Positions 1,087-22,260 of a stretch of 22,944 nucleotides of DNA are shown here, in pieces (position 1 is the first letter of the stretch; each line of letters begins with the position of its first letter). The position numbers and the translations under genes are program-made. The stretch comes from a virus. Where the stretch lies: positions 1 to 22,944 of IMG/VR virus record IMGVR_UViG_3300038701_000923; one strand, given 5' to 3'. Under the pieces are notes generated by a model. It was not told where the DNA came from. It saw only the letters and a list, made by a program, of their open reading frames with translations, and searched no databases.

Positions 1087-1515
1087 ATGACAAGTGCAAT
1101 TACTGGCGTTGGTGCTGAGTTTCAACTCGGTGACGCGGCCAGCCCTGAAGTTTTCACGAAGGTGGCAGAGGTCATTTCGATCTCTGGCCCGGAGCTTTCT
1201 GCTGAACAGGTAGAAGTTACTTCGCTTGATTCGACGGGCGGTTACAAAGAGTTCATTCCCGGTCTGCTTGACGGCGGCTCTGTAACGATTGAATTCAACT
1301 ACGTTGACGGAAACACGCAGCAGGAAGCGTTGCGTACTCGCGTTTCTACAGCAAGCCAGACGGCGCTGAATTATCGCATTCAGTTGCCTGACTCGCCGCT
1401 GTCTTACGTCACGTTTGCGGCAACTGTTGAATCGTATTCCATGAACGTGGAAACCGGCTCTGCTGTTACCGTTTCGTGTGGCGTGAAGATTTCCGGCGCT
1501 CCCGTTTGGTCGTAA
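1087..1515 (+). CDS. Major tail tube protein
   Basis: A 142-residue protein that should polymerise into the hexameric rings of the non-contractile tail tube. The sequence is almost all beta, with the usual phrases of the siphovirus tube family: 'VAEVISISGPELSAEQVEVT', 'GYKEFIPGLLDGGSVTIEFN', and a final 'SCGVKISGAP'. The length is typical for short lambda/TP901-like tube proteins that lack the extra Ig domain. GAGGA at 1076-1080, 6 nt before ATG 1087, is a good ribosome-binding site. It stands alone after two terminators and is not translationally coupled to its neighbours, as expected for a protein needed in far greater amount than the tail-completion proteins. Confidence 0.9.
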   Translation: MTSAITGVGAEFQLGDAASPEVFTKVAEVISISGPELSAEQVEVTSLDSTGGYKEFIPGLLDGGSVTIEFNYVDGNTQQEALRTRVSTASQTALNYRIQLPDSPLSYVTFAATVESYSMNVETGSAVTVSCGVKISGAPVWS

Positions 1516-1908: not shown

Positions 1909-2228
1909 AGCGCCAGCCGTTGCACGTTTTTGTGTTTCGGTTGGCGTTAAGGTTAGGCAAGACAAAGCAGGAACTAATTCGCGATCTTGGCCCGCGAGAG
2001 CTTGGCGAGTGGATGGCGTACTTTGACCTGGAGCCGCCCGACGAGCATCACGAACAGATGTTCGGGGCGCTGATGGCGGGTATGTATAACAGTTCCGGTA
2101 ATTCCCGAAAGGCGTATCAGGCGAAGGACTTTTTACCGAAACGCGAACGCCTGTTCGAGTCGGTGGAATTAAAGCGCAAGCGTGCCGCCGATCAAATCCG
2201 TGCAATTTTTGGAAAGCCTAAGAAATGA
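1905..2228 (+). CDS. Tail assembly chaperone, T-like extension made by frameshift
   Basis: This 107-codon frame is read only as the C-terminal part of a 225-residue GT-type fusion. Its residues (FRLALRLGKTKQELIRDLGPRELGEWMAYFDLEPP ... AKDFLPK) match the DUF4035/minor-tail-T type. In lambda, gpGT uses its T domain to recruit the tube protein while the G domain coats the tape measure. The only available independent start is TTG at 1920, which has no ribosome-binding site, so I take the frame from the slip point at 1905. Its TGA overlaps the ATG of the tape measure gene (ATGA at 2225-2228). Confidence 0.83.
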   Translation, partial: LERQPLHVFVFRLALRLGKTKQELIRDLGPRELGEWMAYFDLEPPDEHHEQMFGALMAGMYNSSGNSRKAYQAKDFLPKRERLFESVELKRKRAADQIRAIFGKPKK

Positions 2229-4321
2229 CAAAGGCAGTCGCATCAGCGTCGATTGACGTAACCGCCAATATAACAAAGCTGCAAAAGCAGCTCGACAGGG
2301 CGGAAGGCCGCATCAAGCGGATGGAGGGAAAAGCCCGCCGTTCGTCGCGCGGCATACAGAGATCGTTCCGCGATGTTTCCACGGTTGGGCGTAACGTCGC
2401 CATTGCGGCGGCGGGAATTGGTGTGGCATTTGCTGCGGCCGCGAGGCAGATAAGCGATGCGGGCATCAAAATGCAAGGGTTCGAGCGCGCCTTCCGCGCC
2501 GCAACGGGTTCGACGGAGGCGGGCGCAGCCGAGATGCAGTTCGTCCGCAAGGAGGCCGACCGGCTTGGCCTGAGCTTTGAGGGCGCTGCGGGGGGCTATG
2601 CAAAGCTGTCAGCAGCGGCAAAGGGCACGGCGATTGAAGGCGCGCAGGCGCGGGATATTTTTACCGCCGTTTCCGAAGCGTCCCGAGTGCTGTCGCTGTC
2701 ATCTGAACAGACGGCGGGCGCACTTACTGCCATTGAGCAGATTATCTCAAAAGGCAAGGTGCAGGCGGAAGAACTGCGCGGCCAGTTGGGTGAACGGCTC
2801 CCCGGTGCATTCCAGATCGCTGCGCGGGCGATGAACCTCACCACCGCTGAACTCGACAAGATGCTGGAACTCGGACAGGTCACTGCCGAGGATATGCTTC
2901 CGGCATTCGCCGAGGAGTTGCGCAAGACGTTCGGCCCGGAGGTTCCATCAGCGGCTAACGATGCGCAGGCGGCGTATAACCGATTCGGTAACGCGATATT
3001 CGACCTACAGACCGCGATTGCATCATCCGGGGTTCTGGATGCGCTGACAAGTCTTGCAGAATATTCGACAAATGCCGCGCGTGAAATAGGCGTTTTTCTC
3101 ACGAGGGTTGGTTTGCTGAAAAACGCTTCTGGCATTCAGAAGCTCGAAGCGGAAATGGCCGATGTAAACGCCGAACTTGCAACGGCAACCCGGCAACTGA
3201 ACGTCATGCGGGGCATTGTCGAGAGGCAAGGCCCGTCCGAGGTTATCAGCGCAAAAGCACTACGGGAACAAGAGGTTGAGGTTCGGCGGCTTGAGTTTGC
3301 GTTGACGGCGGTTGTTAAAAAACGCAACGCGCTTAAATTCGGGGAAACGCCCTCGCCGGTCATCAGCAAGCCGGAAGCAATATCCGGCAATGGTGGGGGA
3401 GTAAAAGACCCGGAAGAAGTAGAAGCGACTGGGGCAGCGATTGACCTGGACGCTCTGCGGGCACAGGAAGAACAAGCCACGCAAATCCGTTTGGAGGCAC
3501 TGCGCCGAAGAAAGGAAGCGGAAGCCGCGTTAAACGCGCAGTTCGCAGCAGTGGAGCTACAAAACAAGGCGCTGACAGACGAGCAATTGCTTGAAGCTGC
3601 ACGGCAATTCGCGTCGGCCAAAGTCATCGCGCAAGTCGAAGCGGAACGGGCTGCGAAAGGCGCGCTCGATATTCCGTTGACCGACGAGGAAAAGATTGAG
3701 GCAACGCGGGAGTTCAACGACCGCATGATTGCCGAGTATGAAAGGCTGGCGTCAGAGCAGGCACGGGCGTCCGCCAAAGGCGCACAGGCGGTCGCAGATA
3801 ACGCGAAGCGCGAGGCAGATGCAAAGCTGTATTTTCAAGGCGTTATGTTGGGCGGCGCTAAACAGTTCTTTACCAAAAACAAAGCCCTGTCGAAAGCGAT
3901 CAACGCCTTTGAGCAGCGCGAACAGTTGGTCAAGGCGTGGAACGCGACCAAAACCGGCATGACTAAAGCCCTTGAGTGGGGCTGGCCGATGGGGCCTATA
4001 TTCGCCGCCGCGATTGGTGCGATGGGCGCGGCCAACATCGCGTCGATGATCGGTGTCGGCGGTGGTGGTGGTGTTGGGTCTGTTGGCGGCGTCGGTGCTG
4101 GCTCTGCGCCCCGCACTCCGCCCCCGGTGGATAACACGGAGCCCAACGAACGCGAGGGCCAGGCAGCCGTGCAGATTGTATTTAACGGCGACATGAACGG
4201 GTGGGACGAATACGTGCAAGAAAAGGTTGTGACATCCATCCGTGACGCGGTGAAGGAACGGGACGTTATTTTGATTGACAGCGAATCTCGGAACGCTCAA
4301 GACCTGGTTGGTGACATCTGA
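2225..4321 (+). CDS. Tape measure protein
   Basis: A 698-residue protein that sets tail length and is ejected ahead of the DNA. Residues about 1-60 are coiled coil with a basic stretch (LQKQLDRAEGRIKRMEGKAR). Residues about 75-240 form a tape-measure N-terminal domain, with the phrases 'FRAATGSTEAG', 'IISKGKVQAEELRGQLGERL' and 'ELGQVTAEDMLPAFAEEL'. The middle is long charged helix. Around residues 575-630 lies a hydrophobic Gly/Ala stretch (GWPMGPIFAAAIGAMGAANI followed by a Gly-rich run) that could span a membrane. At roughly 0.15 nm per residue, the family rule of thumb, an unprocessed protein would give a tail of about 100 nm. It is coupled to the chaperone pair by ATGA and to the next gene by TGATG at 4319-4323. 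Confidence 0.93.
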   Translation: MTKAVASASIDVTANITKLQKQLDRAEGRIKRMEGKARRSSRGIQRSFRDVSTVGRNVAIAAAGIGVAFAAAARQISDAGIKMQGFERAFRAATGSTEAGAAEMQFVRKEADRLGLSFEGAAGGYAKLSAAAKGTAIEGAQARDIFTAVSEASRVLSLSSEQTAGALTAIEQIISKGKVQAEELRGQLGERLPGAFQIAARAMNLTTAELDKMLELGQVTAEDMLPAFAEELRKTFGPEVPSAANDAQAAYNRFGNAIFDLQTAIASSGVLDALTSLAEYSTNAAREIGVFLTRVGLLKNASGIQKLEAEMADVNAELATATRQLNVMRGIVERQGPSEVISAKALREQEVEVRRLEFALTAVVKKRNALKFGETPSPVISKPEAISGNGGGVKDPEEVEATGAAIDLDALRAQEEQATQIRLEALRRRKEAEAALNAQFAAVELQNKALTDEQLLEAARQFASAKVIAQVEAERAAKGALDIPLTDEEKIEATREFNDRMIAEYERLASEQARASAKGAQAVADNAKREADAKLYFQGVMLGGAKQFFTKNKALSKAINAFEQREQLVKAWNATKTGMTKALEWGWPMGPIFAAAIGAMGAANIASMIGVGGGGGVGSVGGVGAGSAPRTPPPVDNTEPNEREGQAAVQIVFNGDMNGWDEYVQEKVVTSIRDAVKERDVILIDSESRNAQDLVGDI

Positions 4322-5295
4322 TGCGCATTCGTTATACGGCACTGCGGGAAATCAACACGGCGGGCGAGCCGCGTCAGGTCTATGATTTTTCCGGGGCTGA
4401 CGATTACCGTTTTACCGCGCCGAGCGTTTTTGACCCCAGTCAGGAGTACGAACTTCGGTGCAAGTTCTATATAAACGAGCTTGGCGCTAATGCACAGCGC
4501 ATTATTTCGATAACGGGGAGTTATTCCGTTTATGTGTCAACGGGAAACTATATTGGCGTAACAGACAATGCAGACGGCAAAACGTCGAACTTCACGACTC
4601 TCACTGTGGATGATGGGCAAGAATATGATCTGCGATTCTTTTATGACGGGATCGGCAATTACACTGTCTCGCTGAACAATTTGAGCGAATCGGATGTTAC
4701 AGCCGCATCGCCTCTCCCGTCAGGGTTAACAACCGTTTATCTGGGAAACACATCCGGGTCGTCTGATCTGGATGGGTTCGTGTTCGATGTGGAGCTATAC
4801 GAAAGCGGCACATTAACGCATTCGTGGGCGTGTGATGACGGTTCTGGAACGACGTTCGCAGATGGCACAGGGTCGGATGACATGAATCGTGCCGGGTCGG
4901 CATCACCGGAACCGCTAGGGTGGAAAACATACACCCCGGAGCACTATTCCGGCGGCTTATATACGAAAACGATCAGGCTCAAGGAATACGACCGGAAGCG
5001 GGACGTAAAGCAGAACACACTAACGTCCATGTCGGGCGTATACCGGACAACATCGCTCCGCACTGACGTAATGTACAACTGCACTACAGAACCAATGACC
5101 GGGGCGGATAAACGCGATATGCGGGAATTTCTCGCGTCATCCGAGAACGGCCTTCAGTTTGAATTTGATGACGGTTCCGGTGATTTCGTGTGGTGCGTGA
5201 TGGAAGGCGGCTATACGGAATCCAGGGCCGTGAGAAGGGGCGACGGCGGCGACGGCGATTATTTTACCTATCGGTGGAAGCATCGTGAGGTCTGA
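4321..5295 (+). CDS. Tail-tip (probable distal tail) protein with lectin-like insertion
   Basis: A 324-residue protein directly after the tape measure gene, where the distal tail or lambda gpM-like protein normally lies. A short N-terminal strand (MRIRYTALREI) and the C-terminal third from about residue 213 (GLYTKTIRLKEYDRKRDV ... YFTYRWKHREV) look like the tail-tip part. Between them, residues about 20-190 read as a LamG/concanavalin-like jelly roll ('VYDFSGADDYRFTAPSVFDP', 'YELRCKFYINE', 'LDGFVFDVELYE'). I infer that the insertion decorates the tip and binds surface sugar. The stop overlaps the following GTG start by 11 nt. The exact tail-tip family is not certain; position carries most of the weight. 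Confidence 0.68.
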   Translation: MRIRYTALREINTAGEPRQVYDFSGADDYRFTAPSVFDPSQEYELRCKFYINELGANAQRIISITGSYSVYVSTGNYIGVTDNADGKTSNFTTLTVDDGQEYDLRFFYDGIGNYTVSLNNLSESDVTAASPLPSGLTTVYLGNTSGSSDLDGFVFDVELYESGTLTHSWACDDGSGTTFADGTGSDDMNRAGSASPEPLGWKTYTPEHYSGGLYTKTIRLKEYDRKRDVKQNTLTSMSGVYRTTSLRTDVMYNCTTEPMTGADKRDMREFLASSENGLQFEFDDGSGDFVWCVMEGGYTESRAVRRGDGGDGDYFTYRWKHREV

Positions 5296-8200
5296 CGACT
5301 GGAATACGTTCGCGGCTTATAATTTTGGTTGGGCGCGAAAACCACGATTCGTTGTTGAAATCGTTTACGATGACGAGAACGTCGTTCTCACATCGCACGA
5401 ACACCCGAAAAACCTTGAAGGGCAAGTCCTTGAGGGGTTTTTGGAAGGCGTAAGTTCGACCAGTAATGCTGTTTACCCGATCGACGGGCGCAGCGAAATC
5501 GGCGGTTTGACAGTATCGGCGCTCGATGTCTCGACGCCCAAACGTTCTTGGGTGTATGACCTCGGCGGCGTTCACTGGTTTCGCCAAGATGGATCGAGGT
5601 TTCACGCGAACCGAAAAACGCGGATTCGGGCGTATTTCGTTATTGACGAGGCGAGCCCAACCACAACGGCGTCCATATTCTCAGTTGAGGGCGTTCTGTA
5701 TTACATGATCAGTGATACGGGGCAGGTTCGCGTTTACGATTCAGCGGCGGTTGCATTTACTAATACCGGCCTGTACGTGGAGCCGGGCAAAATCCACCGC
5801 GCCGAGATTGAGTGGGATGGTGAGGGTAACTTCTACGTCTGGCTTGACGGCCAGAAATACAGCCCGAGCCCTGCGACCACCTACACAATAGAATCCCCCG
5901 TCAACTCAGGGGCGCTTTACATTGGGGGGCGGTGGACGGTCTTCACAGAGGGGCGCGTATGGGGTGTGAAAGCATGGGATGAAGGCGTCCTGAAATGTGA
6001 CGCACCAATGAACGAAGGGCATGGAATCCCTCGCGAGTATGTATACAAGCGCGAAATGGTGCGCCTGAGCAGGACAGCGGGCGCAGCCGGGTGGGCTCGA
6101 CAAACGCTGGATAACATTTCAGACGTTCTGCGGGCAAAGATTAACGACAGCAGTTCCCCGGCGAACCCACAGGGAACATTCGAGCGGGAACTCCGTTTAT
6201 ACGTCGGGTTTACTGATGATTTCGACGATTATGTGCGGGTAATAACCACCTACATTGACTCTGTCGATACGCAGGACGGGGAATACACGTTCCGGTGTTC
6301 TGATGTAACGAAACTGCTCCGCAGAAACGTATTTGAGCGCAAAACGTGGCGACTCACTTCCGATCTGGATGATGGCTCCGCCAGCCCGCAGCCCGACATT
6401 CCGTTAAGCGAATCACCCGACGATGTGCGCTGCCCCCACACAGCAGCATTCACGGACGCGCCTAGCGAAACCGTGGGGTATATCAAGGTAAAGGATACCG
6501 GCGAGATAATCCGCTATACAGGCGTTTCCGACAGCCCTGCGGCATTTACCGGCATTACTCGTGGCGTCATGGGCACTAACGCCGCGGCTACGTCGGGCGA
6601 CTACGCGAACGGGGTGGACAATTATCCCGAGCTTGAGGAAGTCATTTACCTGGAAATGCCTGCGCCTCAACTGGCGTATGCAGTCATTACCGGGCGGATA
6701 TTCGGTTCGTCACCGATGGCGACGTTGCCCGATCACTGGCACATGGGCGTGTCTGTTGACAAGATGGCAACCTCCGAATGGGAAGGCATCGGGCCGGATT
6801 TATATGACAGCGATATCGCCGGGCTTGTTCTGTATTTCAACCATCTGAAAAAGACGGACGGTAAAAAGTTCGTCGAGAACGAAATTCACCGGCTTGTCGG
6901 AACATATTCGCCCATCAACACAGACGGCACGTTAGGGCTTGCCCGAATCAACCGTGTGCTGTCGGGCTCGAGTGCGGACGGGTTGCTCTATCAAGACCAG
7001 ATCGTTAGTTACACGCCCGCTAAAACCGTCTCGCGGGACGTTATCAATTCATATCGGATTGATTACCAGTGGAACGGGGAAAAGTACCTTAATTCGTTCC
7101 TGTTCACTGACGCGGATTCGGTGGCGATAAATGGCGCGTCGAAAACGAAGGTTCTCAAGTTCAAAGGTCTGCATACGTCGCGCCATTCCGTTTCGCTTAT
7201 CGCGCAGCTTATCAACACGCTGCAAGACAGGTACAGAAACCCGCCGATTGAAATGGGCGTCAATCTGCTGCCCGAATACAACATCATCGAATCTAATGAT
7301 GTCATTACGGTGGTGCTGTATTCGCAATCCGAATTTGCGGATTCATCCAATGTGTTCATAAATCGGCCCTTCGAGGTTCAGCGGACTTCGGTGGACTGGG
7401 TTCGCGGTGATGTGCGGCTGCAACTGTTCGCGTCAACTGGCACTGGCGGCGCGGCCATGTACACGCCAAACATCGTGCTGGCGGATGCGTTCTATACATC
7501 GAAAGGCACGGACATTGCCACGATGGAAAGCCCGTCACCGATTGACGGAGCGGGCAACCTGTTGGCCGACCTGACGCTAACGGGCGATGCGGATATGACC
7601 GCAGCGGGCGCGGTTTATTATGTAGATGGCGACTTTACCGTACCCAACGGGGTTACGTTGACCGTTGAGGACAACGTCCAGCTGCGGGTTAAGGGTACGT
7701 TTACCGTTAACGGCACGGTTGACGGGGTTGGAAATGGGAAAGCGGGGGCCACGGATACACGGGGGATCGGGTCGGGGCTGTGGCTGCGTCCGTTTTGTAT
7801 CGAGGGAACATCCGGTTTTATCGGCAATACCCGATCAACCGACAGCGCGGGACATCACGGCGGTGACTGGTGGCAGTGTTCGGGGTTGCTCACCGAGGGC
7901 CAGCATTCAACATTCCCTGACGTATTGTTGAATGCGGGCGACCAGACCGCCTCGCCCGTTCCTGCGGACGTAACAGGCGTCCCCACAGATATGCGTGGCA
8001 CTTCTGGTGCTACAGGCGCGATGGCCTGCCGGGAGTATTGGGGGTACCGATATATCGAGGCTCGTGGCGGCGACGGTGGCGACGGTGGGGCGGGCGTTTG
8101 TGTTATCGCGCGAGGCATGGGGGCGGGTGCAAACGGTCTTATTAACCTGTCCGGCGGGGATGGTGCCGAGGGGGAAACGTGGACTGTAACAGGCGGTTAC

Positions 8201-8545
8201 TACCGGCCAGAAAACGCGAATCCGTCGCAACCCTACCAGTACAAGGCCGGGACTGGCGCTGGCGGCGGCCCTGGTGGCCTGCTGGTGGTTATCGACGGTG
8301 ACGCCGGGCTCCCCGACCTCACAAGCACATTCGTGGGGCGCACGGGGGCCACGGTGCCAGTCGGCACAGACGCCGATGATTGGGGGCACCCGCGAATCGG
8401 TTGGGGATACGGGCAAAACACGAAGCCACACACAGGGCGGAACGCCGGTTATGCGGACGGCAATCCGCAATACATTATTGATGATGTTGACAGATCAGAA
8501 GCATGTTTGAAGGTGTTGTGGGTGCCGGAGGCCGCTGATGGATGA
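5285..8545 (+). CDS. Tail hub/tip protein with lectin-like and Gly-rich domains
   Basis: A 1086-residue multi-domain tail-tip protein. Residues 1-88 and about 255-720 form the structural hub part, with phrases such as 'LRLYVGFTDDFDDYVRV', 'YTFRCSDVTKLLRRNVF' and 'RPFEVQRTSVDWVRGDVRLQ' typical of baseplate-hub or central-tip proteins. Residues about 89-250 are a LamG-like segment starting 'VYDLGGVHWFRQDG', similar to the one in the upstream protein. Residues about 720-1086 start with beta-helix-like strands (VYYVDGDFTVPNGVTLTVED) and become very Gly-rich (GGDGGDGGAG; GTGAGGGPGG), as seen in receptor-binding tips. GTG at 5285 overlaps the upstream stop. The role as host-range determinant is inferred from architecture and position. 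Confidence 0.75.
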   Translation: MRSDDWNTFAAYNFGWARKPRFVVEIVYDDENVVLTSHEHPKNLEGQVLEGFLEGVSSTSNAVYPIDGRSEIGGLTVSALDVSTPKRSWVYDLGGVHWFRQDGSRFHANRKTRIRAYFVIDEASPTTTASIFSVEGVLYYMISDTGQVRVYDSAAVAFTNTGLYVEPGKIHRAEIEWDGEGNFYVWLDGQKYSPSPATTYTIESPVNSGALYIGGRWTVFTEGRVWGVKAWDEGVLKCDAPMNEGHGIPREYVYKREMVRLSRTAGAAGWARQTLDNISDVLRAKINDSSSPANPQGTFERELRLYVGFTDDFDDYVRVITTYIDSVDTQDGEYTFRCSDVTKLLRRNVFERKTWRLTSDLDDGSASPQPDIPLSESPDDVRCPHTAAFTDAPSETVGYIKVKDTGEIIRYTGVSDSPAAFTGITRGVMGTNAAATSGDYANGVDNYPELEEVIYLEMPAPQLAYAVITGRIFGSSPMATLPDHWHMGVSVDKMATSEWEGIGPDLYDSDIAGLVLYFNHLKKTDGKKFVENEIHRLVGTYSPINTDGTLGLARINRVLSGSSADGLLYQDQIVSYTPAKTVSRDVINSYRIDYQWNGEKYLNSFLFTDADSVAINGASKTKVLKFKGLHTSRHSVSLIAQLINTLQDRYRNPPIEMGVNLLPEYNIIESNDVITVVLYSQSEFADSSNVFINRPFEVQRTSVDWVRGDVRLQLFASTGTGGAAMYTPNIVLADAFYTSKGTDIATMESPSPIDGAGNLLADLTLTGDADMTAAGAVYYVDGDFTVPNGVTLTVEDNVQLRVKGTFTVNGTVDGVGNGKAGATDTRGIGSGLWLRPFCIEGTSGFIGNTRSTDSAGHHGGDWWQCSGLLTEGQHSTFPDVLLNAGDQTASPVPADVTGVPTDMRGTSGATGAMACREYWGYRYIEARGGDGGDGGAGVCVIARGMGAGANGLINLSGGDGAEGETWTVTGGYYRPENANPSQPYQYKAGTGAGGGPGGLLVVIDGDAGLPDLTSTFVGRTGATVPVGTDADDWGHPRIGWGYGQNTKPHTGRNAGYADGNPQYIIDDVDRSEACLKVLWVPEAADG

Positions 8546-8801
8546 TATATGGCGAGCAATCGGGTCGTTTCTGGCCGTGCTCGGCGCGGGCGGTTGGGTT
8601 GCGCGTGTTCATGTGAAAACGAACCGCAACGAGGTCGATATAGACAATGTACTGCACAAGCTGGACAACCACACGCGGGAGGCTCAGGCGCACTCGGACA
8701 GGGTTCATGCGCTGTCCGAGCGCATAGCAGTGCTTGAGACAAAGGCGGATGTAAATACGAAGATTCTCGGTGAGATTCGGGACGCCGTGAAGCGTGACTA
8801 A
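8538..8801 (+). CDS. Small membrane protein with coiled coil (possible lysis accessory)
   Basis: An 87-residue protein with one N-terminal membrane segment (about residues 5-24, IWRAIGSFLAVLGAGGWVAR). A coiled-coil tail follows (NEVDIDNVLHKLDNHTREAQ ... SERIAVLETKADVNTKILGE). Its size, topology and place just before a holin-like gene resemble small accessory lysis proteins, but I do not recognise a specific family. GGAGG at 8527-8531, 6 nt before ATG, is a strong ribosome-binding site. The start overlaps the end of the hub gene and the stop overlaps the next ATG (TAATG at 8799-8803). Confidence 0.65.
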   Translation: MDDIWRAIGSFLAVLGAGGWVARVHVKTNRNEVDIDNVLHKLDNHTREAQAHSDRVHALSERIAVLETKADVNTKILGEIRDAVKRD

Positions 8802-9298
8802 TGGATTTAATCCTAGTCAGGTTTTCTTACGCCCCAACGGAAACCGAGGGGCTTTTTTATGCCCCGCCGCTTGAGCCGTTCGCCACGATGGAGCAGCCGT
8901 GGGTGGGGCAATGGGGCGGCGCAACGTATCCATCCGGCAAGCCGTTTTATTCCTGCATACCGGAAGGCAAGTACGAGCTTGTCCCGTATAAACGGCCCAA
9001 TGGCCAAAAGGTGTGGGCGCTCGTCAATGCGTCGCTTGGCGTGTATCTGCACAAGGTGGATCGTAAACACGACCACGAGCGTTATTTGTGCCTTATGCAT
9101 CCCGGCAACCTTGTCGAACACACGCAAGGGTGCATTTTGCCGGGGTTGCGTCGCGGAATCATCAAGGGGCAGCGGGCAGTCGTTAAATCCGGCTTTCGGG
9201 CGGGGTACGCGATGGACTTGCTTGCGAAATTACTCGGGCCGATGTCAACCGGCCACACGCTAACAATCAGACAGGTGAAGGGCGCGCACTATGTTTAA
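8801..9298 (+). CDS. DUF5675 family protein in the lysis cluster
   Basis: A 165-residue protein with the family's layout: N-terminal 'MDLILVRFSYAPTETEGLFY', then 'TMEQPWVGQWGG', 'SCIPEGKYELVPYKRPNGQK', and the conserved 'LCLMHPGNLVEHTQGCILPG' segment. Function is not established. The H-P-G-N ... G-C-I arrangement recalls the HG ... GC core of L,D-transpeptidase-type enzymes, so a cell-wall role is possible but unproven. It lies between the coiled-coil membrane protein and the holin-like gene, and no other endolysin is visible. A terminator-like hairpin lies inside codons 11-20 (see that entry). The stop overlaps the start of the holin-like gene. Confidence 0.78.
   Translation: MDLILVRFSYAPTETEGLFYAPPLEPFATMEQPWVGQWGGATYPSGKPFYSCIPEGKYELVPYKRPNGQKVWALVNASLGVYLHKVDRKHDHERYLCLMHPGNLVEHTQGCILPGLRRGIIKGQRAVVKSGFRAGYAMDLLAKLLGPMSTGHTLTIRQVKGAHYV
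8831..8858 (+). terminator. Intragenic terminator-like hairpin in the DUF5675 gene
   Basis: GCCCC (8831-8835) pairs with GGGGC (8848-8852), with an inner CGG/CCG stem and AAA loop, and is followed by six T residues (8853-8858). It lies within the first 20 codons of the gene. The string GGGCTTTTTTATGCCCCG (8849-8866) is identical to positions 1041-1058 in the tandem terminators upstream of the tail tube gene. Confidence 0.6.
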
Positions 9299-9656
9299 GA
9301 CGCTTAAAGCGATATTCAGCACACCCACGGATGCTTCAAAAGTCGCGGACGCGGTGATTAAGGGCGCGGACGCGGCGTGGTTTACCAAAGAGGAGCAGTC
9401 CGCGTGGTTTCTTCGGTATCTGGAAGCCACACAGCCGCAGAACCTTTCCCGTCGGTTCATTGCGATGGCGGTTAGCATGGTGTGGGTGGTATCAGCATTG
9501 GTACTACTGGCCGTGACGCTGGCTGGTATTGAAGTGGTCGCAGAAAACGTGTTCGCGTTTATGAGCACGGTTGTCAACCCGGTTTTTTATACGGTGGTCG
9601 GCTTTTACTTCGCGCACCGGATAGCCGGGGGCTTTTCTGACGCGCTGAAGAAATGA
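9291..9656 (+). CDS. Holin-like membrane protein (GTA_holin_3TM type)
   Basis: A 121-residue protein with an amphipathic N-terminal half (KVADAVIKGADAAWFTKEEQ, then 'FLRYLEATQPQNLSRRF'). Two membrane spans follow, at about residues 56-80 and 86-107 (FIAMAVSMVWVVSALVLLAV; VNPVFYTVVGFYFAH), and the tail is basic. This matches the layout of GTA-type or '3TM' holins, which oligomerise in the inner membrane to trigger lysis. It overlaps the DUF5675 gene at its start and the next gene at its end (ATGA at 9653-9656), so it belongs to the same translationally coupled lysis cluster. Function is inferred from topology, phrasing and position. Confidence 0.72.
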   Translation: MFKTLKAIFSTPTDASKVADAVIKGADAAWFTKEEQSAWFLRYLEATQPQNLSRRFIAMAVSMVWVVSALVLLAVTLAGIEVVAENVFAFMSTVVNPVFYTVVGFYFAHRIAGGFSDALKK

Positions 9657-9949
9657 GCATCCCGTCCCGCATTGAGATAGCGGGTCAGGAAATCACCGTC
9701 AAGCAAGTGCGCGACCTGTATGACCGGGATGGCGTTTACGGCGATTGGTGTTCAAGGACAAACACAATCCGAATCCAGAAACCGGGCGCGGCACACCCGC
9801 TGGATACGATCTTTGGGACGTACTACCACGAAGTTCTGCACGCGGTTCTAGACCTTGCAGGCCATACTGAATGGTCGAAAAACGAGGATTTCGTGGAACG
9901 GGTGGGGCAACTGCTTTATCAGGCTGAAAAATCGAGGCGCTATGACTGA
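9653..9949 (+). CDS. Small HExxH zinc-peptidase-like phage protein
   Basis: A 98-residue protein with the motif 'YYHEVLHAVLD' in its second half. H-E-V-L-H is a canonical HExxH zinc site with the usual small and hydrophobic surroundings, and a downstream glutamate (ENF-like 'KNEDFVERVGQLL') could supply the third ligand. The N-terminus is a short beta part (IEIAGQEITVKQVRDLY). Small proteins of this kind are common in tailed phages. No substrate is known to me. A role in lysis is possible from position but not shown. It overlaps the holin-like gene at its start and the metallophosphoesterase at its end (ATGACTGA). Confidence 0.68.
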   Translation: MSIPSRIEIAGQEITVKQVRDLYDRDGVYGDWCSRTNTIRIQKPGAAHPLDTIFGTYYHEVLHAVLDLAGHTEWSKNEDFVERVGQLLYQAEKSRRYD

Positions 9950-11105
9950 TTATCAAGCCCTGCTGCCATACGCGGAAACGGAGACACAGCGCAACGTCAT
10001 TGATGCCTGTATCCACGCGGATACGGTAAGCGGGGCGGCAAAACAACTTGGGGTTGACCAGCGCAACGTCTATGAGGCGCTGAAGCGGGTCAAGCGGAGA
10101 GCGGCGGCTCAGGGATACTCGCCAGAGCACGACATGACCAAGCCCGCGCCCAATGGGTTCGCTGTTAAGGGAACTTCCACTCTGTACGACGCCGAAACGG
10201 GCGAAGCGAAGATTCAGTGGGTCAAGACGCAGGCTGACCAGAATCAGCGGCTAGAGATGTTGCGTGATGCGCTACACGCATCGTTCGACGAGGTTAAGCC
10301 ATTAAAGGCCATCAAGGCACCGAAGCGGGCAAACAAGGATTTGCTCTCAGTCATTCCTCTCGGTGATCCCCATGTGGGCATGTATGCGTGGGCGGAGGAA
10401 ACGGGCGAGAACTATGACACCAAGATCGCCACGGAATTGCATGAAGCGGCGGTGGACAGGCTGGTCAACATCTCGCCGGATGCCGAGACAGGCGTGTTGC
10501 TGAATCTAGGAGATTTTTTCCACGCGGACAACATGGATGCCAGGACTCGGCGTTCGGGTAATGCGCTCGACGTTGATACCCGGTGGGCCGATGTGATGAC
10601 CATAGGCGTTGAGTTGATGGTGCGCCTGATTCGTCGAATGCTGGAAAAGCACAAGCGGGTCATCGTCAAGAACAACATCGGCAACCACGACGAGCACTCG
10701 TCGGTCATGCTCGCCATTGCTTTAAATGCGTTTTTCAGGGGCAACAAGCGGGTTCAGATTGATACCAGTCCATACCCTTTTTGGTATCACCGACACGGGA
10801 AGGTGCTGATTGCATCCACCCACGGGGATAAGACAAAGCCCCAACAGCTTGCGCAACTGATGGCGTCGGATAAGCCTTCAGATTGGGGCGAGACAGCGTA
10901 CCGATATTGGTACATCGGCCACGTTCACCATCAGGCGCGGTTTGAGTTTCCAGGCGTTGAAGTGGAATCGTTCAGGACGCTCGCAGCAAAGGACGCTTGG
11001 CATTCGGCAGAAGGTTACAGGTCTGCGCGGGATATGCACTGCATCGTGCATCACAAAGATCAGGGTGACGTTGAACGACACAGGGTAGCGGTGGAACAGC
11101 TATGA
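9942..11105 (+). CDS. HTH plus calcineurin-like metallophosphoesterase
   Basis: A 387-residue protein. Residues about 13-55 (TETQRNVIDACIHADTVSGA, then 'AKQLGVDQRNVYEALKRVKR') form a helix-turn-helix-like DNA-binding segment. Residues 135-360 carry a complete two-metal calcineurin-type phosphoesterase site: GDPH (D142, H144), GDFFH (D191), GNHD (N248, H249, D250), THGD (H294) and GHVH (H327, H329). It should hydrolyse a phosphodiester or phosphomonoester; the substrate cannot be read from sequence. A longer frame begins at 9855, but ATG 9942 has GAGG at 9934-9937 and overlaps the previous stop, so I prefer it. Its place inside the late operon, not the replication region, is unusual for a DNA-processing enzyme. 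Confidence 0.85.
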   Translation: MTDYQALLPYAETETQRNVIDACIHADTVSGAAKQLGVDQRNVYEALKRVKRRAAAQGYSPEHDMTKPAPNGFAVKGTSTLYDAETGEAKIQWVKTQADQNQRLEMLRDALHASFDEVKPLKAIKAPKRANKDLLSVIPLGDPHVGMYAWAEETGENYDTKIATELHEAAVDRLVNISPDAETGVLLNLGDFFHADNMDARTRRSGNALDVDTRWADVMTIGVELMVRLIRRMLEKHKRVIVKNNIGNHDEHSSVMLAIALNAFFRGNKRVQIDTSPYPFWYHRHGKVLIASTHGDKTKPQQLAQLMASDKPSDWGETAYRYWYIGHVHHQARFEFPGVEVESFRTLAAKDAWHSAEGYRSARDMHCIVHHKDQGDVERHRVAVEQL

Positions 11106-11448: not shown

Positions 11449-14214
11449 ATGGCGGGGCGGAATTTCTATCGTTACGCATTCGGGCATGGCTCTAAAGCGG
11501 GCGGAAAGAATGTGCTCGTTATAGGCGATTCTTTTGCCTATGACAACATAGGCGGAGAGGCAAGCTGGTCGGAGTATATGACCAGTCAGGGCACGTTAAG
11601 CATCGAGGCATTCGGCGGGGCCAAACTCGATCAAGGCGGCTCACCAATTAAGGACAGCATTGACGGGTGGCTTGCCGAGTATCCCGAGGCGGAGGTCGTG
11701 GTGCTGAACGGGGGCACAAATGACATAAAAGGGCCGCTGTCGTCCGAGCCGGACGTTGACTCTCTCAAATCCGCAGCGGCTTATTGCGTTGAAGCGATTA
11801 TCGCTGCGGGGCGGCAATGTGTGATAGTTGACATCCCGCCCCTCGGGGATTACGAGTTTATTGACCAGGACTTAGTCTCCCCAAGTTTTCAAGCCGAAAA
11901 GCTGGCAGCGGTCACGGAATATAATGCGTGGCTTGGCGCGTTCGCCCCTGCGACAGGTTGCAAGCTAATCCAGACAACGGCGCTGTTTGATGACGGGGCT
12001 GGTGGTCTTGATGATGCCTATGACCGCGATGGCCTGCATTTGAACGTGGCCGGGTCGCGGATTGTTGCGGGCCTGATTGATGACCGGATTCGGTCTGCGG
12101 ACATTCCGCAAACGGTCGCAACAGTCGCGGTCAGGGAGCGCCCGAGCCCCGAACTGATGACAGCGGCGGAAATAAATACCGTCAAGACATTTGTGGACAG
12201 TGTCGCTTCGGAATGGGAAAGCGCGAAGGATGTATGGATACTGACGCAAAGCGATGACTCTGCTGGTGGCAATGCGCTGACAGGGCTCAAGGGAACGGTC
12301 GCCACAGTAGGCGCGGGAACGCCTTCGGTAAACAGCAACGGGATGGCTTTTGCCGCAGGAGAATACCTGAATATCCCCCTTAACCCGCTGAACGATTGGG
12401 CCGATGATGGTATCGGTCAGGGCGTTGTGGTTACAGAGTCGGGCGATGATACGTCTAACATTTACTGCTGCGGCACGGCACTTAACAGCGGGTTTACCAA
12501 TGTTTCGTATATTCGCTGGCAAGGGAATACGGCGCTAAAGACGCTGTCCCACAATGTGGGTGGGATTTGGCTTGAGGGCGAGCTTCGGTCGAACAATCTT
12601 GGGTCATGCGTGGAAAGCAACGCCGTGGTATCGGGAGACAACATATCGCATTCGACATGGCTTAGCGGAACAGAGTCATCGGGCGATGCGGCGGAGGCAG
12701 CCGCACGGAGTAGCGAAAACTTCGCACTGCACGCCATGCGGCACAACACGGGCGTTACAACGAGCGACACCAGCGCCACGTACTCGGTTTTCTATCTGAC
12801 AGACGGAACAAACACTCCTGCAACATGGGCGGCAGCGTCGGAGGTCGTTGCCGCTGGCCCTTTTAGCCCGTCGGTGACGGGGCTGTCACCAAGCTCCGGC
12901 ACCGAGTCAGGAGGCACCGAGGTCACCATAACCGGCACCGGGTTCACCGGGGCGACAGACGTTACTTTCGACGGTGTATCGGGCACCAGCCGGACGGTGG
13001 TGAGCGACACGGAAATCACGGTGGACTCGCCTGCGGGCACAGCCGGGGTTGTTGACGTGGTGGTTACCACGCCAGCGGGATCGTCAGCGACAAGTGGCGA
13101 TTCGGAATTTACCTACACGGCAGCGGCGGCGGGCTATGACCCTGCAACTCGTCTGCTTGATGCCCCGGCAGGGATGAATGTCCCGGCTCTGGCCATTCGG
13201 CCAACCACCACAACCACGGCGTCGGTGAGCACTGCAAGCGCATTCAATGCAGCGGTTACGAGCGGGGTTCACATCACCATGAATCCGGGCACTTGGGACG
13301 AAGACTTGGTGCTCGACGGCGTGAATAACGTGCGCGTAACCAATAACGCGGGCGTGTCGATGAACCATGTTGTGCGTGTCGACGATTGCGACCGAATCCT
13401 GTTTGAAGGATTTACGCCCCGCGCCGGAGAGTTCGGTTATTTCTACTTGGGACAAAGCGACACCGGCCCGGTTACTAACATAACCATCGACGGCGTAACT
13501 CAGAAGCATGTGACCGGGCTGAGTTTCGAGCAGGGTAACTTCTTTGAAGGCAGCCGGATTACTATTATCAATAGCGATTTGGAGGCTTACGAGCACCCTG
13601 CGAAAGGCTTTAGCACTGACGCCAATCCGGTGTCTGATGTGTTTATCGGCAACTGCCGTTTGATTGACCGCAACGGCGAGTTGGCGGGTAGCGGGCCGGA
13701 GGAGTTCAGCCTGCGATTCCATGGGATTAAGCGATATGCGTTTGTAGATAACCAGTCGATACAGCGGTCGTATAGCAGTGGCGGTTGGGACCACTTCCGT
13801 ATTCACGCTCAACCCGCAGCAGCGCACGCAGCTGCAACAGACAGGGATACACACGACGTGTGGGTGGATAACAACCAGTTTGAGTGCGACAGCACTGGCC
13901 GAGGGCACAACTGGCAGCGCAGAGCAGAAGGACTTCCAGAGGCGGGGCACGGCGAAATTTACCGAGTCTGGTACACGAATAACGACGATTACATTGGGTC
14001 GAGCGTGTCGCAGCGCATTAATGTCGGGTCGGAAAATGCCGATGTGCAGTCACCAACAACCGACGTCACGATTACCGGGAACCAGCTATATCAAGGCAGT
14101 GGTGGCAACAGCAGTCCTTACCCGACGCAGCCGTCGGGCCGCACTAACTGGACGGTCAGCAATCCCACGTCACTGGCTTACACCACGCCGCCCGCGTGGG
14201 ACTTCGCAGCGTGA
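11449..14214 (+). CDS. Tailspike-like protein: SGNH esterase, ConA-like, TIG and beta-helix
   Basis: A 921-residue multi-domain protein. Residues about 20-215 are an SGNH/GDSL hydrolase: GDSF (Ser28), a Gly in block II near 57, NGGTND (Asn87 to Asp92) and DGLHLN (Asp194, His197). All catalytic residues are present. Residues about 230-470 are beta-rich and read like a ConA/LamG-type domain. Residues about 473-560 are an IPT/TIG immunoglobulin-like domain (VTGLSPSSGTESGGTEVTIT and 'TGFTGATDVTFDGV'). Residues about 575-921 show the strand/turn rhythm of a right-handed beta-helix ('NNVRVTNNAGVSM', 'ITIINSDLEAYE', 'VTITGNQLYQG'). The likely role is binding and enzymatic trimming (for example deacetylation) of host surface polysaccharide. 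It has no signal peptide, as expected for a virion protein. Confidence 0.82.
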   Translation: MAGRNFYRYAFGHGSKAGGKNVLVIGDSFAYDNIGGEASWSEYMTSQGTLSIEAFGGAKLDQGGSPIKDSIDGWLAEYPEAEVVVLNGGTNDIKGPLSSEPDVDSLKSAAAYCVEAIIAAGRQCVIVDIPPLGDYEFIDQDLVSPSFQAEKLAAVTEYNAWLGAFAPATGCKLIQTTALFDDGAGGLDDAYDRDGLHLNVAGSRIVAGLIDDRIRSADIPQTVATVAVRERPSPELMTAAEINTVKTFVDSVASEWESAKDVWILTQSDDSAGGNALTGLKGTVATVGAGTPSVNSNGMAFAAGEYLNIPLNPLNDWADDGIGQGVVVTESGDDTSNIYCCGTALNSGFTNVSYIRWQGNTALKTLSHNVGGIWLEGELRSNNLGSCVESNAVVSGDNISHSTWLSGTESSGDAAEAAARSSENFALHAMRHNTGVTTSDTSATYSVFYLTDGTNTPATWAAASEVVAAGPFSPSVTGLSPSSGTESGGTEVTITGTGFTGATDVTFDGVSGTSRTVVSDTEITVDSPAGTAGVVDVVVTTPAGSSATSGDSEFTYTAAAAGYDPATRLLDAPAGMNVPALAIRPTTTTTASVSTASAFNAAVTSGVHITMNPGTWDEDLVLDGVNNVRVTNNAGVSMNHVVRVDDCDRILFEGFTPRAGEFGYFYLGQSDTGPVTNITIDGVTQKHVTGLSFEQGNFFEGSRITIINSDLEAYEHPAKGFSTDANPVSDVFIGNCRLIDRNGELAGSGPEEFSLRFHGIKRYAFVDNQSIQRSYSSGGWDHFRIHAQPAAAHAAATDRDTHDVWVDNNQFECDSTGRGHNWQRRAEGLPEAGHGEIYRVWYTNNDDYIGSSVSQRINVGSENADVQSPTTDVTITGNQLYQGSGGNSSPYPTQPSGRTNWTVSNPTSLAYTTPPAWDFAA

Positions 14215-14519
14215 AACAGACAGACTTCCCACCCTACCGAATGCCGTGGCCAGAGCGATGGGAAGCTCTGACCGGCATCCGGCCACGGGTGCAAAAGTGC
14301 AAGCTGTCCCGGTTCCCGGGTCAATTCACCTACAAGTTTCTGGATGGCAACGGCGAGCCGCAGCTTACGGCGCGGCTGGCATCAGAAATCATCCGGCGAA
14401 CGAAAGACGGCAAACCTTACAAGTACGCGAGGAACGTAGATGACAAACCTGCTGATAGTTCTATTCCTGACATGGACATTGCCGACGCAAAACATCGACG
14501 GCTCGCCGCTCGATTCTGA
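14211..14519 (+). CDS. Small basic hypothetical protein
   Basis: A 102-residue frame starting at GTG 14211, which overlaps the spike's TGA (GTGA). It is basic and contains 'RMPWPERWEALTGIRPRVQK' and 'FPGQFTYKFLDGNGEPQL'. I do not recognise a family. The last 27 residues overlap the next gene out of frame. Coupling to the spike hints at a spike-associated role such as a chaperone, but nothing in the sequence proves it. Confidence 0.5.
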   Translation: MKQTDFPPYRMPWPERWEALTGIRPRVQKCKLSRFPGQFTYKFLDGNGEPQLTARLASEIIRRTKDGKPYKYARNVDDKPADSSIPDMDIADAKHRRLAARF

Positions 14520-14779: not shown

Positions 14780-14812
14780 TGGCTCCCCGGGCCGGACTCG
14801 AACCAGCGACGC
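14780..14812 (-). other. tRNA 3' fragment (tRNA-Asn-like)
   Basis: Read on the minus strand this is GTCGCTGGTTCGAGTCCGGC followed by CCGGGGAGCCA: a complete T-arm (GCTGG, TTCGAGT, CCGGC), the 3' strand of an acceptor stem, discriminator G and encoded CCA. The 'GTCGCTGGTTCGAGTCC' and 'GGAGCCA' parts are what tRNA-Asn genes of gammaproteobacteria look like. No anticodon arm, D-arm or 5' acceptor strand precedes it; instead there is the TAGACG repeat tract. It is a fragment, not a gene. Confidence 0.7.
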
Positions 14813-14814
14813 TT

Positions 14815-14872
14815 TAGACGCTTTAGACGGTTTTGGCCGGTTTCGATAGACGATTATAGACGGATATAGACT
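14815..14872 (+). repeat. TAGAC(G) direct repeats in the attachment region
   Basis: TAGACG occurs at 14815, 14824, 14847 and 14857, and TAGACT at 14867. The last three are spaced exactly 10 bp apart and are embedded in AT-rich sequence. The first two form a 9-bp tandem repeat (CTTTAGACG). Such phased short direct repeats beside an attachment core are what integrase arm-type sites or excisionase sites look like. The assignment is by position and pattern only. Confidence 0.6.
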
Positions 14873-14898
14873 TTATAAATTCATAACAGTCTGAAAAG

Positions 14899-14947
14899 TG
14901 GCGTCCCCAAGGGGATTCGAACCCCTGTTACCGCCGTGAAAGGGCGG
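14899..14947 (-). other. attP core: 3' part of tRNA-Glu(UUC)
   Basis: On the minus strand this reads from the anticodon stem CCGCC, loop CTTTCAC (anticodon TTC), GGCGG, variable TAAC, T-arm AGGGG-TTCGAAT-CCCCT, acceptor strand TGGGGAC, discriminator G and CCA. It matches known gammaproteobacterial tRNA-Glu from the anticodon stem to the CCA. The 5' half (acceptor GTCCCC, D-arm) is absent; the sequence before it is unrelated. It lies 58 nt beyond the 3' end of the integrase gene. This is the standard form of a phage attachment core that restores the host tRNA on integration. Phage genes on both sides make it attP. Confidence 0.82.
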
Positions 14948-14980
14948 ACCAGCACCTTGTATCTATTGGTTTTCGTGATG

Positions 14981-15004: not shown

Positions 15005-15976
15005 TCACAGCTCAAATCCTCTCATGGCTTGCTCCAGATGCTCGCTGGCAACGTGCAAATACTTCTCCGTGGTGGTCACGTTCGCGTGGCCCATGAGTTG
15101 CTGCAACACCCTGACCGGGGTTCCTTTCATGGCCTGGTGCGTTGCAAAGGTGTGTCGCAAGCTGTACAGAGAGCCGCCCAGACCCGCGTGTGCGGCGCGG
15201 AACGCACGGGTGAGGTTTGGGCCGTGCATGGGTATTTCGCCAGTTAGCGCGCTCAGGGAGGCGCGAGCGGCGCTGTTGAGGGGTATTTCCCTCCATTTGC
15301 GCGATTTGGTACGGGCCTCCCGCGTGGAGCGGACGATAATACTGGCCCCCCTGTCCTCAAAAGCCCTGACTTCCCCCCGCCGAATCCCGGTGTTTACCAT
15401 GAACCGCCATATTGGCGCGTTGACATCCTCATAGATTGTTTGCAGTTCTTCCATCGTATACCAGCGAAACGGGCGGCTTTCGATTATCTGCGGGGGCTTC
15501 ACTGCCTGTATGCAGTTGTACGGCACGATCCTGTGGGAAACACCCCAATTCAGCACGGCTTTCAGCGTGCGGATTTCCTTCGCCACGGTTGCCTGAGAGA
15601 CTTTTTCAAGTCGATCAGCCTTGTAAACTTCCACCTTGGATGGGTTGATCTGGTCGGCTGGATCAATGGAGAAAACAGGCCGCAGCCGCTTCTCGACAAT
15701 AAACCGGATGCGTTCGTGTGAGTCGGGGTAGTCGCTCCGGTGCCACTCTAAGTAACGCTCTGCCAGATCACGGAACAGCGGCGCATGGCTAAGCACTTGC
15801 CGCCCTGTTTCCAACTCAATCTCTTTGGCCTTTCGGAATGTTTCAGCTTCTCGGCGACTGATTATCCCAAGGCTTTTCTTTCGCTCCCGGCCATGTTCAG
15901 ACCAGCGGAGATCAAAATAGACGCCTTTTTTACCCCTGCGCTCGGATAGGGTTGCCATAACTTTCTTTTGCTGCAT
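15005..15976 (-). CDS. int: Tyrosine-recombinase integrase
   Basis: A 323-residue phage integrase that should join attP to the host tRNA-Glu site and, with excisionase, reverse the reaction. An N-terminal arm-binding segment (about 7-50) is followed by a SAM-like core-binding domain (about 65-150) and the catalytic domain. The catalytic set is complete: Arg in 'NTGIRRGEVRAF', Lys in 'KSRKWREIPL', HxxR as 'SLRHTFATH' (written L-R-H-T-F, with the Arg), 'LMGHANVTTTEKYLHV' supplying His and the nucleophile Tyr. ATG 15958 (MATLSERRGKKG) is an alternative, possibly better, start; neither has a clean ribosome-binding site. It overlaps the excisionase gene and its 3' end faces the attachment core. 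Confidence 0.93.
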   Translation of the reverse strand: MQQKKVMATLSERRGKKGVYFDLRWSEHGRERKKSLGIISRREAETFRKAKEIELETGRQVLSHAPLFRDLAERYLEWHRSDYPDSHERIRFIVEKRLRPVFSIDPADQINPSKVEVYKADRLEKVSQATVAKEIRTLKAVLNWGVSHRIVPYNCIQAVKPPQIIESRPFRWYTMEELQTIYEDVNAPIWRFMVNTGIRRGEVRAFEDRGASIIVRSTREARTKSRKWREIPLNSAARASLSALTGEIPMHGPNLTRAFRAAHAGLGGSLYSLRHTFATHQAMKGTPVRVLQQLMGHANVTTTEKYLHVASEHLEQAMRGFEL

Positions 15977-16645: not shown

Positions 16646-17228
16646 CGTCCTGCTCCATGCGCTTGAGGGCGGCATCCAGTCCGCAAGAGCAGTAACCATA
16701 ACCACCAATCACCGCGCAAAGTGAGTCATGCGTCCCGTGCCGCTCCAACGCCTCCCGCAGCCGCTCATTATCGGCGCGGAGTTGGTCGCGCTCTTCAATA
16801 AGTCCATTCAACGTGGGTTCAATGGAATTAAAATCATCTGCGAGCAGAAGGTCAGCGAGCCGCGCCCCGAGCCGCTGAATGTCTGAATCTTCTACCGGAA
16901 GCAGAGCATGCTTGGCGAGCATCTTTTGAATGTCATCACGCTCGGCCTCCGCAGCCTCGGCCCGCGCTACGGCTTGCCGGTAGGCTTTGAGCAAAGTCTG
17001 AATTGCTTGAACTGCCCATGTAAGAACTAAATCAGCGTCCTTATCTTCATTGGCCGGTATACTCATGTACAAAAGATCAGTAACATTTCGCCAGCCATCC
17101 GCTCCGGCACGCTTGTTACTGGTTATGGCCGCGACGATTTTTTCTATGGTCGGTAAACGCTTGCTCGCGCTGTCCTCAATCTCCGCAATCTCCGCATCAT
17201 CGACCGGAAGTTCTTTAGGGTCACTCAT
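16638..17228 (-). CDS. Coiled-coil hypothetical protein A (repeat-bearing paralogue)
   Basis: A 196-residue acidic helical protein: 'MSDPKELPVDDAEIAEIEDS' at the start, a long coiled coil (ARAEAAEAERDDIQKMLAKH, and later 'GLIEERDQLRADNERLREAL'), and a Cys-containing end (CAVIGGYGYCSCGL). The 61 residues encoded by 16771-16953 are identical, base for base, in the second paralogue at 21781-22260. ATG 17228 overlaps the previous stop (ATGAGTGA) with GAGG 9 nt upstream. The frame could extend to a TTG at 17243, which is less likely. Function unknown. Confidence 0.72.
   Translation of the reverse strand: MSDPKELPVDDAEIAEIEDSASKRLPTIEKIVAAITSNKRAGADGWRNVTDLLYMSIPANEDKDADLVLTWAVQAIQTLLKAYRQAVARAEAAEAERDDIQKMLAKHALLPVEDSDIQRLGARLADLLLADDFNSIEPTLNGLIEERDQLRADNERLREALERHGTHDSLCAVIGGYGYCSCGLDAALKRMEQDDG
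16771..16953 (-). repeat. 183-bp perfect direct repeat, copy 1
   Basis: Identical over all 183 bases to 21899-22081 and in the same orientation and reading frame within two otherwise divergent coiled-coil genes. Just outside copy 1 the sequences diverge, although a short string (GCAGCCTCGGCCCGCGCTA) next to it reappears near 21805, so the two genes look mosaic. Confidence 0.97.
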
Positions 17229-21784: not shown

Positions 21785-22260
21785 GTTTCGCCCTCATCCT
21801 CAGCAGCCTCGGCCCGCGCTATGGCTTCGTCACGTTCCAGAACCGCATTGTTAAGACCGCCCAATAGCGAGCGGTTGAGGCTTTTCCGCTGCTCGTTCTC
21901 GGCGCGGAGTTGGTCGCGCTCTTCAATAAGTCCATTCAACGTGGGTTCAATGGAATTAAAATCATCTGCGAGCAGAAGGTCAGCGAGCCGCGCCCCGAGC
22001 CGCTGAATGTCTGAATCTTCTACCGGAAGCAGAGCATGCTTGGCGAGCATCTTTTGAATGTCATCACGCTCGGCCTCCGCATCATCCACCAGCTTGGTCT
22101 GCTGTTCGATGAGGTCGATGGCTTTTTGCAGTTCCATCAATGGTGTAGCGTCAATCCACAAGGATTCACCCCAATTTTCATGGGCCGCATCAAGAAATTG
22201 TTGCAGTTCATCGGTGTTGACTTCCTGCAGCTTCGCGGCCAGTTCTTTAAGGTCAGTCAT
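21781..22260 (-). CDS. Coiled-coil hypothetical protein B (repeat-bearing paralogue)
   Basis: A 159-residue acidic helical protein starting 'MTDLKELAAKLQEVNTDELQ', compared with 'MSDPKEL' in paralogue A. The middle 61 residues ('AERDDIQKMLAKHALLPVED' through 'LNGLIEERDQLRA') are identical to that protein at the DNA level, and the C-terminus is 'RDEAIARAEAAEDEGET'. ATG 22260 overlaps the previous stop (ATGA in ACAATGAC). A longer frame to 22362 runs through the membrane-protein gene and is rejected. Function unknown; oligomerisation through the coiled coil is likely. Confidence 0.72.
   Translation of the reverse strand: MTDLKELAAKLQEVNTDELQQFLDAAHENWGESLWIDATPLMELQKAIDLIEQQTKLVDDAEAERDDIQKMLAKHALLPVEDSDIQRLGARLADLLLADDFNSIEPTLNGLIEERDQLRAENEQRKSLNRSLLGGLNNAVLERDEAIARAEAAEDEGET
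21899..22081 (-). repeat. 183-bp perfect direct repeat, copy 2
   Basis: Identical to 16771-16953, offset 5128 bp, same strand. The interval between the copies contains bet, exo, ssb, the methyltransferase and five small genes, so recombination between copies would delete exactly this block. Confidence 0.97.

Follow-up and report, generated by a model that had tools for sequence, protein, structure and literature searches.

How a large phage protein that opens with an esterase domain could be held on a virion, and on which substrate it would act, is the question raised by a 921-residue gene product encoded in the 22,944-base IMG/VR virus record IMGVR_UViG_3300038701_000923, the whole of which was analysed here and is called the window. 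The original prediction made it a spike of four modules, an SGNH esterase, a ConA-like part, a TIG domain and a beta-helix, with the esterase taking the N-terminus and the gene lying after the lysis cluster. The analysis reported below makes it likely that this protein is a virion receptor-binding protein with an N-terminal anchor of about 14 residues, followed by shuffled modules, and that it is an esterase of host polysaccharide.

Modules of the spike protein

Coordinates of the spike modules and of the genes discussed are collected in Table 1. The SGNH module covers the full Lipase_GDSL_2 profile (51.8 bits, for a Pfam cut-off of 32.9), a match far above chance. The four catalytic residues announced in the original prediction were found at their places, Ser28 in a GDS motif, Asn91 in GGTND, and Asp194 and His197 in DGLHLN, meaning that SGNH blocks I (the Ser of GDS), III (Asn) and V (Asp-x-x-His) are all present. 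For the oxyanion glycine of block II, an FGG triplet (residues 55–57) stands at the expected place, in a column that is not conserved in a three-sequence alignment. A three-sequence SGNH profile retrieved solved GDSL acylhydrolases, with E-values down to 6e-7. With the alpha/beta/alpha flavodoxin-like fold of the superfamily in mind, the module was also modelled with AlphaFold (pLDDT 39), and the best PDB matches obtained with Foldseek were SGNH enzymes (E 4e-3 to 5e-2), the neighbours of this weak model including the peptidoglycan O-acetyltransferase PatB and lipolytic enzymes. Because the AlphaFold models are poor (mean pLDDT 38–39), Foldseek is taken as weak support only.

Residues 222–472, which had been labelled ConA-like, matched no Pfam family at E≤10, Laminin_G and ConA included. 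A profile search of the PDB did not return any ConA-like fold either, its only matches being two pectate lyase chains (E 0.02–0.03). Since neither a ConA/LamG family nor a solved structure of that fold was matched, the label is not confirmed. The module itself recurs in a related contig, L093 (phmmer 1.9e-12; hhalign 97%).

The TIG domain that follows was confirmed well above chance, with 46.7 bits in Pfam for a cut-off of 20.9, and an NCBIfam E-value of 1.5e-10. A recent acquisition of this domain was considered and rejected, as the difference in GC3, 0.72 compared to 0.61–0.64, is no larger than sampling of 89 codons can produce.

The C-terminal 365 residues probably fold as a right-handed beta-helix. 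Eight rungs of the V-x-V-x-N-N type were counted, with a motif picked after inspecting the sequence, compared to a mean of 1.1 in shuffled sequences; none of 5000 shuffles reached eight. The single-sequence AlphaFold model of residues 557–921 was all-beta, with a pLDDT of 38, and its PDB matches included beta-helix alginate and pectate lyases, none of them below E 1. The region gave no Pfam match at E≤10, and no lyase family match. The beta-helix first proposed is therefore retained as probable only, with the rungs and the all-beta model in its favour, and the lack of a Pfam match and the low pLDDT against it.

Table 1. Positions of the spike modules and of other features in the window
Feature	Position	Strand	Basis
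Tail tube gene	1087–1515	+	
Tape measure gene	2225–4321	+	
Large tail protein, with LamG-like insertion	5285–8545	+	Homologues in L002, L092, L093, L094
phrog_704 exonuclease-like gene, upstream of cassette	9882–11105	+	phrog_704 match
Small ORF, same cassette, 78 aa	11102–11338	+	'LN.G...YG.G' region shared with L094 and L002 ORFs
Coiled-coil-like ORF, 66 aa	11247–11447	+	Counterparts in L002, L094
Spike gene, 921 aa	11449–14214	+	Intact ORF, ATG 11449, stop 14214
Putative anchor peptide MAGRNFYRYAFGHG, residues 1–14	11449–11490	+	Common to L094 spike, same slot
SGNH/GDSL esterase module, residues 24–205	11518–12063	+	PF13472 E 1.8e-13; Ser28, Asn91, Asp194, His197
Conserved module of unproven fold, residues 223–472	12115–12864	+	Homologous to L093 residues ~346–600
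IPT/TIG domain, residues 474–556	12868–13116	+	Pfam E 3.3e-12
Probable right-handed beta-helix, residues 557–921	13117–14211	+	Rung motif versus shuffles; all-beta model; weak PDB matches
attP-like 3' half of tRNA-Glu, spike/integrase interval	14898–14949	-	98% identity to E. coli tRNA-Glu, 50 nt

Genomic context

On its 5' side, the spike gene is preceded by + strand genes for a DUF5675 protein, a phrog_9646 protein and the phrog_704 exonuclease, and also by a gene for a small protein with an HExxH-like motif. The phrog_9646 product is a small membrane protein (PHROG category: function unknown). No lysis family was matched among these genes, and the position after a lysis cluster is partly wrong. 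A single base separates the stop codon of the coiled-coil ORF from the ATG of the spike. Further upstream, the product of gene 5285–8545 may be a tail hub or tip protein.

On the 3' side, a reading frame overlapping the spike end (14196–14519) had no family match, and a tyrosine integrase is encoded on the - strand (15005–15976). The presence of both an integrase and an attP-like tRNA-Glu half means that the phage is temperate. Its host is probably a gammaproteobacterium, judging from the tRNA-Glu similarity. Searches of the window for Rfam families and for complete tRNAs were negative. The attP-like region (14780–14949) also contains a second stretch resembling a tRNA 3' end (14780–14824), and repeated TTTAGACG/TATAGACG motifs.

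A shared N-terminal peptide and exchanged modules

Searches of phage and plasmid collections, of IMG/VR and of GTDB genomes returned no full-length homologue of the spike; those of IMG/VR and GTDB were made with short peptide patterns, which detect close relatives only. A genome scan with the tail-protein alignment gave no relative. Syntenic contigs (L002, L092, L093 and L094) were found by searching with the tail protein 5285–8545.

In L094, an exonuclease gene, a small ORF and a 63-aa coiled-coil ORF are followed, in the same slot as the window spike, by a gene for a 705-aa protein. This protein begins with MAGRNFYRYAMGRG, where the window spike begins with MAGRNFYRYAFGHG. Residues 1–10, MAGRNFYRYA, are identical in the two proteins despite silent changes in 8 of the 9 codons after the ATG, which argues for selection on the peptide. 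Behind it, the L094 protein has different modules, then a C-terminal SGNH domain (PF13472 E 6e-10). Two relaxed pattern scans of IMG/VR did not yield a third locus with the peptide, only L094 and chance frames. The claim that the esterase takes the N-terminus thus needs to be amended: SGNH does lie next to the putative anchor, but this peptide of residues 1–14 precedes it, and because these residues are shared with a different spike in L094, the usual anchor-first order still holds. The peptide would attach the spike to the virion, possibly through the coiled-coil neighbour, as would fit the conserved, tightly spaced pair of coiled-coil and spike genes.

The same slot of L002, after the coiled-coil ORF, is occupied by a fibre-like gene whose product has an N-terminus of the MASTFPTD type; a protein of L094 with a similar start, MADITFPTD, matches minor-tail, virion-structural and tail-fibre PHROGs. 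In L093, gene 7379–9181 encodes a tail-tube domain (PF16460 9.1e-6; phrog_158 1.8e-13), then an SGNH module and a module of the 222–472 type, both homologous to residues 58–472 of the spike (phmmer E 2.3e-30). This fusion would tie the SGNH and 222–472 modules to the virion. A scan for the RP...LMTA linker pattern returned L093 only. The SGNH catalytic residues are kept in L093 and L094. Judged from these sequences, the slot is one for receptor-binding proteins, in which the first ~14 residues stay constant and the rest is exchanged, and the comparison with L094, L093 and L002 shows modules swapped and re-ordered behind the anchor among related phages.

Some further observations were made on these contigs. 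Through its fusion, the L093 esterase would sit on the tail tube or at the tube end. Stand-alone tail-tube-like genes are found downstream of DUF5675 in L002 (7971–8441) and in L094 (12424–12990, a second copy there). The gene following the L093 fusion (9474–10901) encodes a ConA-type-looking module and a degenerate C-terminal SGNH (GDS, GGVNQ, EGVHW), for which no Pfam match was obtained.

Proposed function and alternatives

We propose that the spike would act as a virion-attached receptor-binding protein of a temperate phage with tail-tube and tape measure proteins. Its N-terminal ~14 residues would bind the tail, possibly via the coiled-coil protein or the tail hub. By the mechanism of its family, SGNH would be a serine esterase in which Ser28 is the nucleophile, Asp194 and His197 form a pair, and Asn91 belongs to the oxyanion hole, and it would most likely strip the surface polysaccharide of the host of O-acetyl groups. 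The 222–472 module, TIG and beta-helix may provide a spacer, a trimer body, and a binding or second carbohydrate-active part. The assignment as tail spike and polysaccharide esterase is well supported, by context and precedent; a location in the virion has indirect support from the tail-tube fusion of L093, and the spike would be a trimer. More tentatively, it is possible that in this phage group a minimal anchor of ~10–14 residues accepts esterase, lectin-like and helix modules in any order, with an esterase working close to the tail or at the tip, and on the tail itself in a relative where the esterase unit is joined to a tail-tube protein copy.

Among the large genes, that of the spike comes last ahead of attP and the integrase, a place where conversion genes also occur, and the SGNH domain of L094 matches phrog_6102, of the category 'moron, auxiliary metabolic gene and host takeover'. 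The protein might then be an esterase of lysogenic conversion, made by the prophage and modifying the host polysaccharide outside the virion, with a surface change or a superinfection block as a result. We regard this as improbable: the gene is co-oriented with the late genes, one base past the coiled-coil ORF, and no promoter-like site was found on the + strand between 11000 and 15100; its product is devoid of any signal peptide-like, membrane or N-terminal hydrophobic stretch; in L002 this slot holds a fibre-like gene whose N-terminus differs, and homologous modules are joined to a tail-tube domain in L093.

Even on the virion, SGNH may not be the main activity. Lyase or hydrolase activity is frequent among beta-helix tailspikes, and the alginate and pectate lyases among the PDB matches of the weak C-terminal model would agree with a classical depolymerase, in which the helix is the main enzyme and SGNH an extra esterase, helper or spacer. 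That this is so seems doubtful, given that no lyase family was matched, that no catalytic signature was identified in a beta-helix modelled at pLDDT 38, and that SGNH, not the helix, is retained in L093 and L094. As to the substrate, the SGNH fold permits many esters, and the PatB and lipolytic neighbours would suit an action on peptidoglycan O-acetyl groups or lipids at entry, rather than on capsule or O-antigen. This is quite unlikely, as the phage SGNH spikes in the literature have surface polysaccharide or simple acetyl esters as their substrates, and the neighbours come from a weak model of a promiscuous fold. A polysaccharide esterase carried on the virion is the reading that we retain.

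Comparison with known esterase spikes

SGNH receptor-binding proteins are esterases or deacetylases in phages G7C, Possum and Aristophanes and in Klebsiella prophages (PMC13123978, PMC9569702, PMC8471582). As described in the literature, gp63.1 of Escherichia phage G7C, which serves here as a functional model with SGNH within a receptor-binding spike, deacetylates the O-polysaccharide without cutting the chain (PMC13123978, PMC9569702, PMC6872550). It is described there as a branch held by gp66 via a T4gp10-like domain, whereas in the window spike a 14-residue peptide directly precedes SGNH and, unlike in gp63.1 as there described, the 222–472 module, TIG and a probable beta-helix lie behind it. 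Because no sequence relation to known esterase spikes was detected (tblastn against 50,697 phage records gave no match), we place the spike beside the G7C type as a functional analogue, not as a member.

The Klebsiella prophage fibres 164_08 and 174_38, for which esterase activity was measured on p-nitrophenyl acetate, are likewise SGNH receptor-binding proteins of temperate phages (PMC13123978), but they carry SGNH in a C-terminal brush-like part, and the window spike next to the anchor. Pectobacterium phage Possum gp66, which deacetylates the host O-polysaccharide, and Acinetobacter phage Aristophanes gp41 are also modular SGNH spikes or fibres (PMC9569702, PMC8471582); their N-terminal attachment is longer and folded, and SGNH is central in Possum and C-terminal in Aristophanes. 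Closer to the window spike in their attachment are K1-5, with peptide anchors of 7 and 11 residues, and the second receptor-binding protein of KP32, with 29 (PMC6872550): a short conserved N-terminal peptide is followed by swapped modules, the peptide sequences being different.

What distinguishes the window spike is an SGNH on the tail-proximal side, with TIG and then a probable beta-helix behind it, compared to the central or C-terminal SGNH of the published cases considered. Our literature comparison covers few papers, and earlier examples of the SGNH-first order may exist. Known parts and a known principle are combined in an unusual order, with no close relative, and the placing of SGNH beside the anchor amounts to a real but modest variation. 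If the proposal is true, deacetylase spikes can dispense with an enzyme at the distal tip, and a 10-residue peptide suffices as a tag that directs a protein to the tail. Peptides of this kind would then help to flag unannotated receptor-binding proteins of metagenomic phages, the remaining part of which has no homologue.

Other features of the window

Two tail proteins, 4321–5295 and 5285–8545, contain LamG-like insertions of about 190 and 170 aa, respectively, missing in the homologues compared. Comparison by hhalign relates one insertion to the other (68%, E 5e-5), and that of 5285–8545 has a weak Laminin_G_3 match (Pfam, E 0.0024). A 206-base block is present twice, at 16760–16965 and 21888–22093, with 96% identity, inside two related ORFs of the - strand, and 27-base tandem units occupy the extreme end of the contig (22538–22942).
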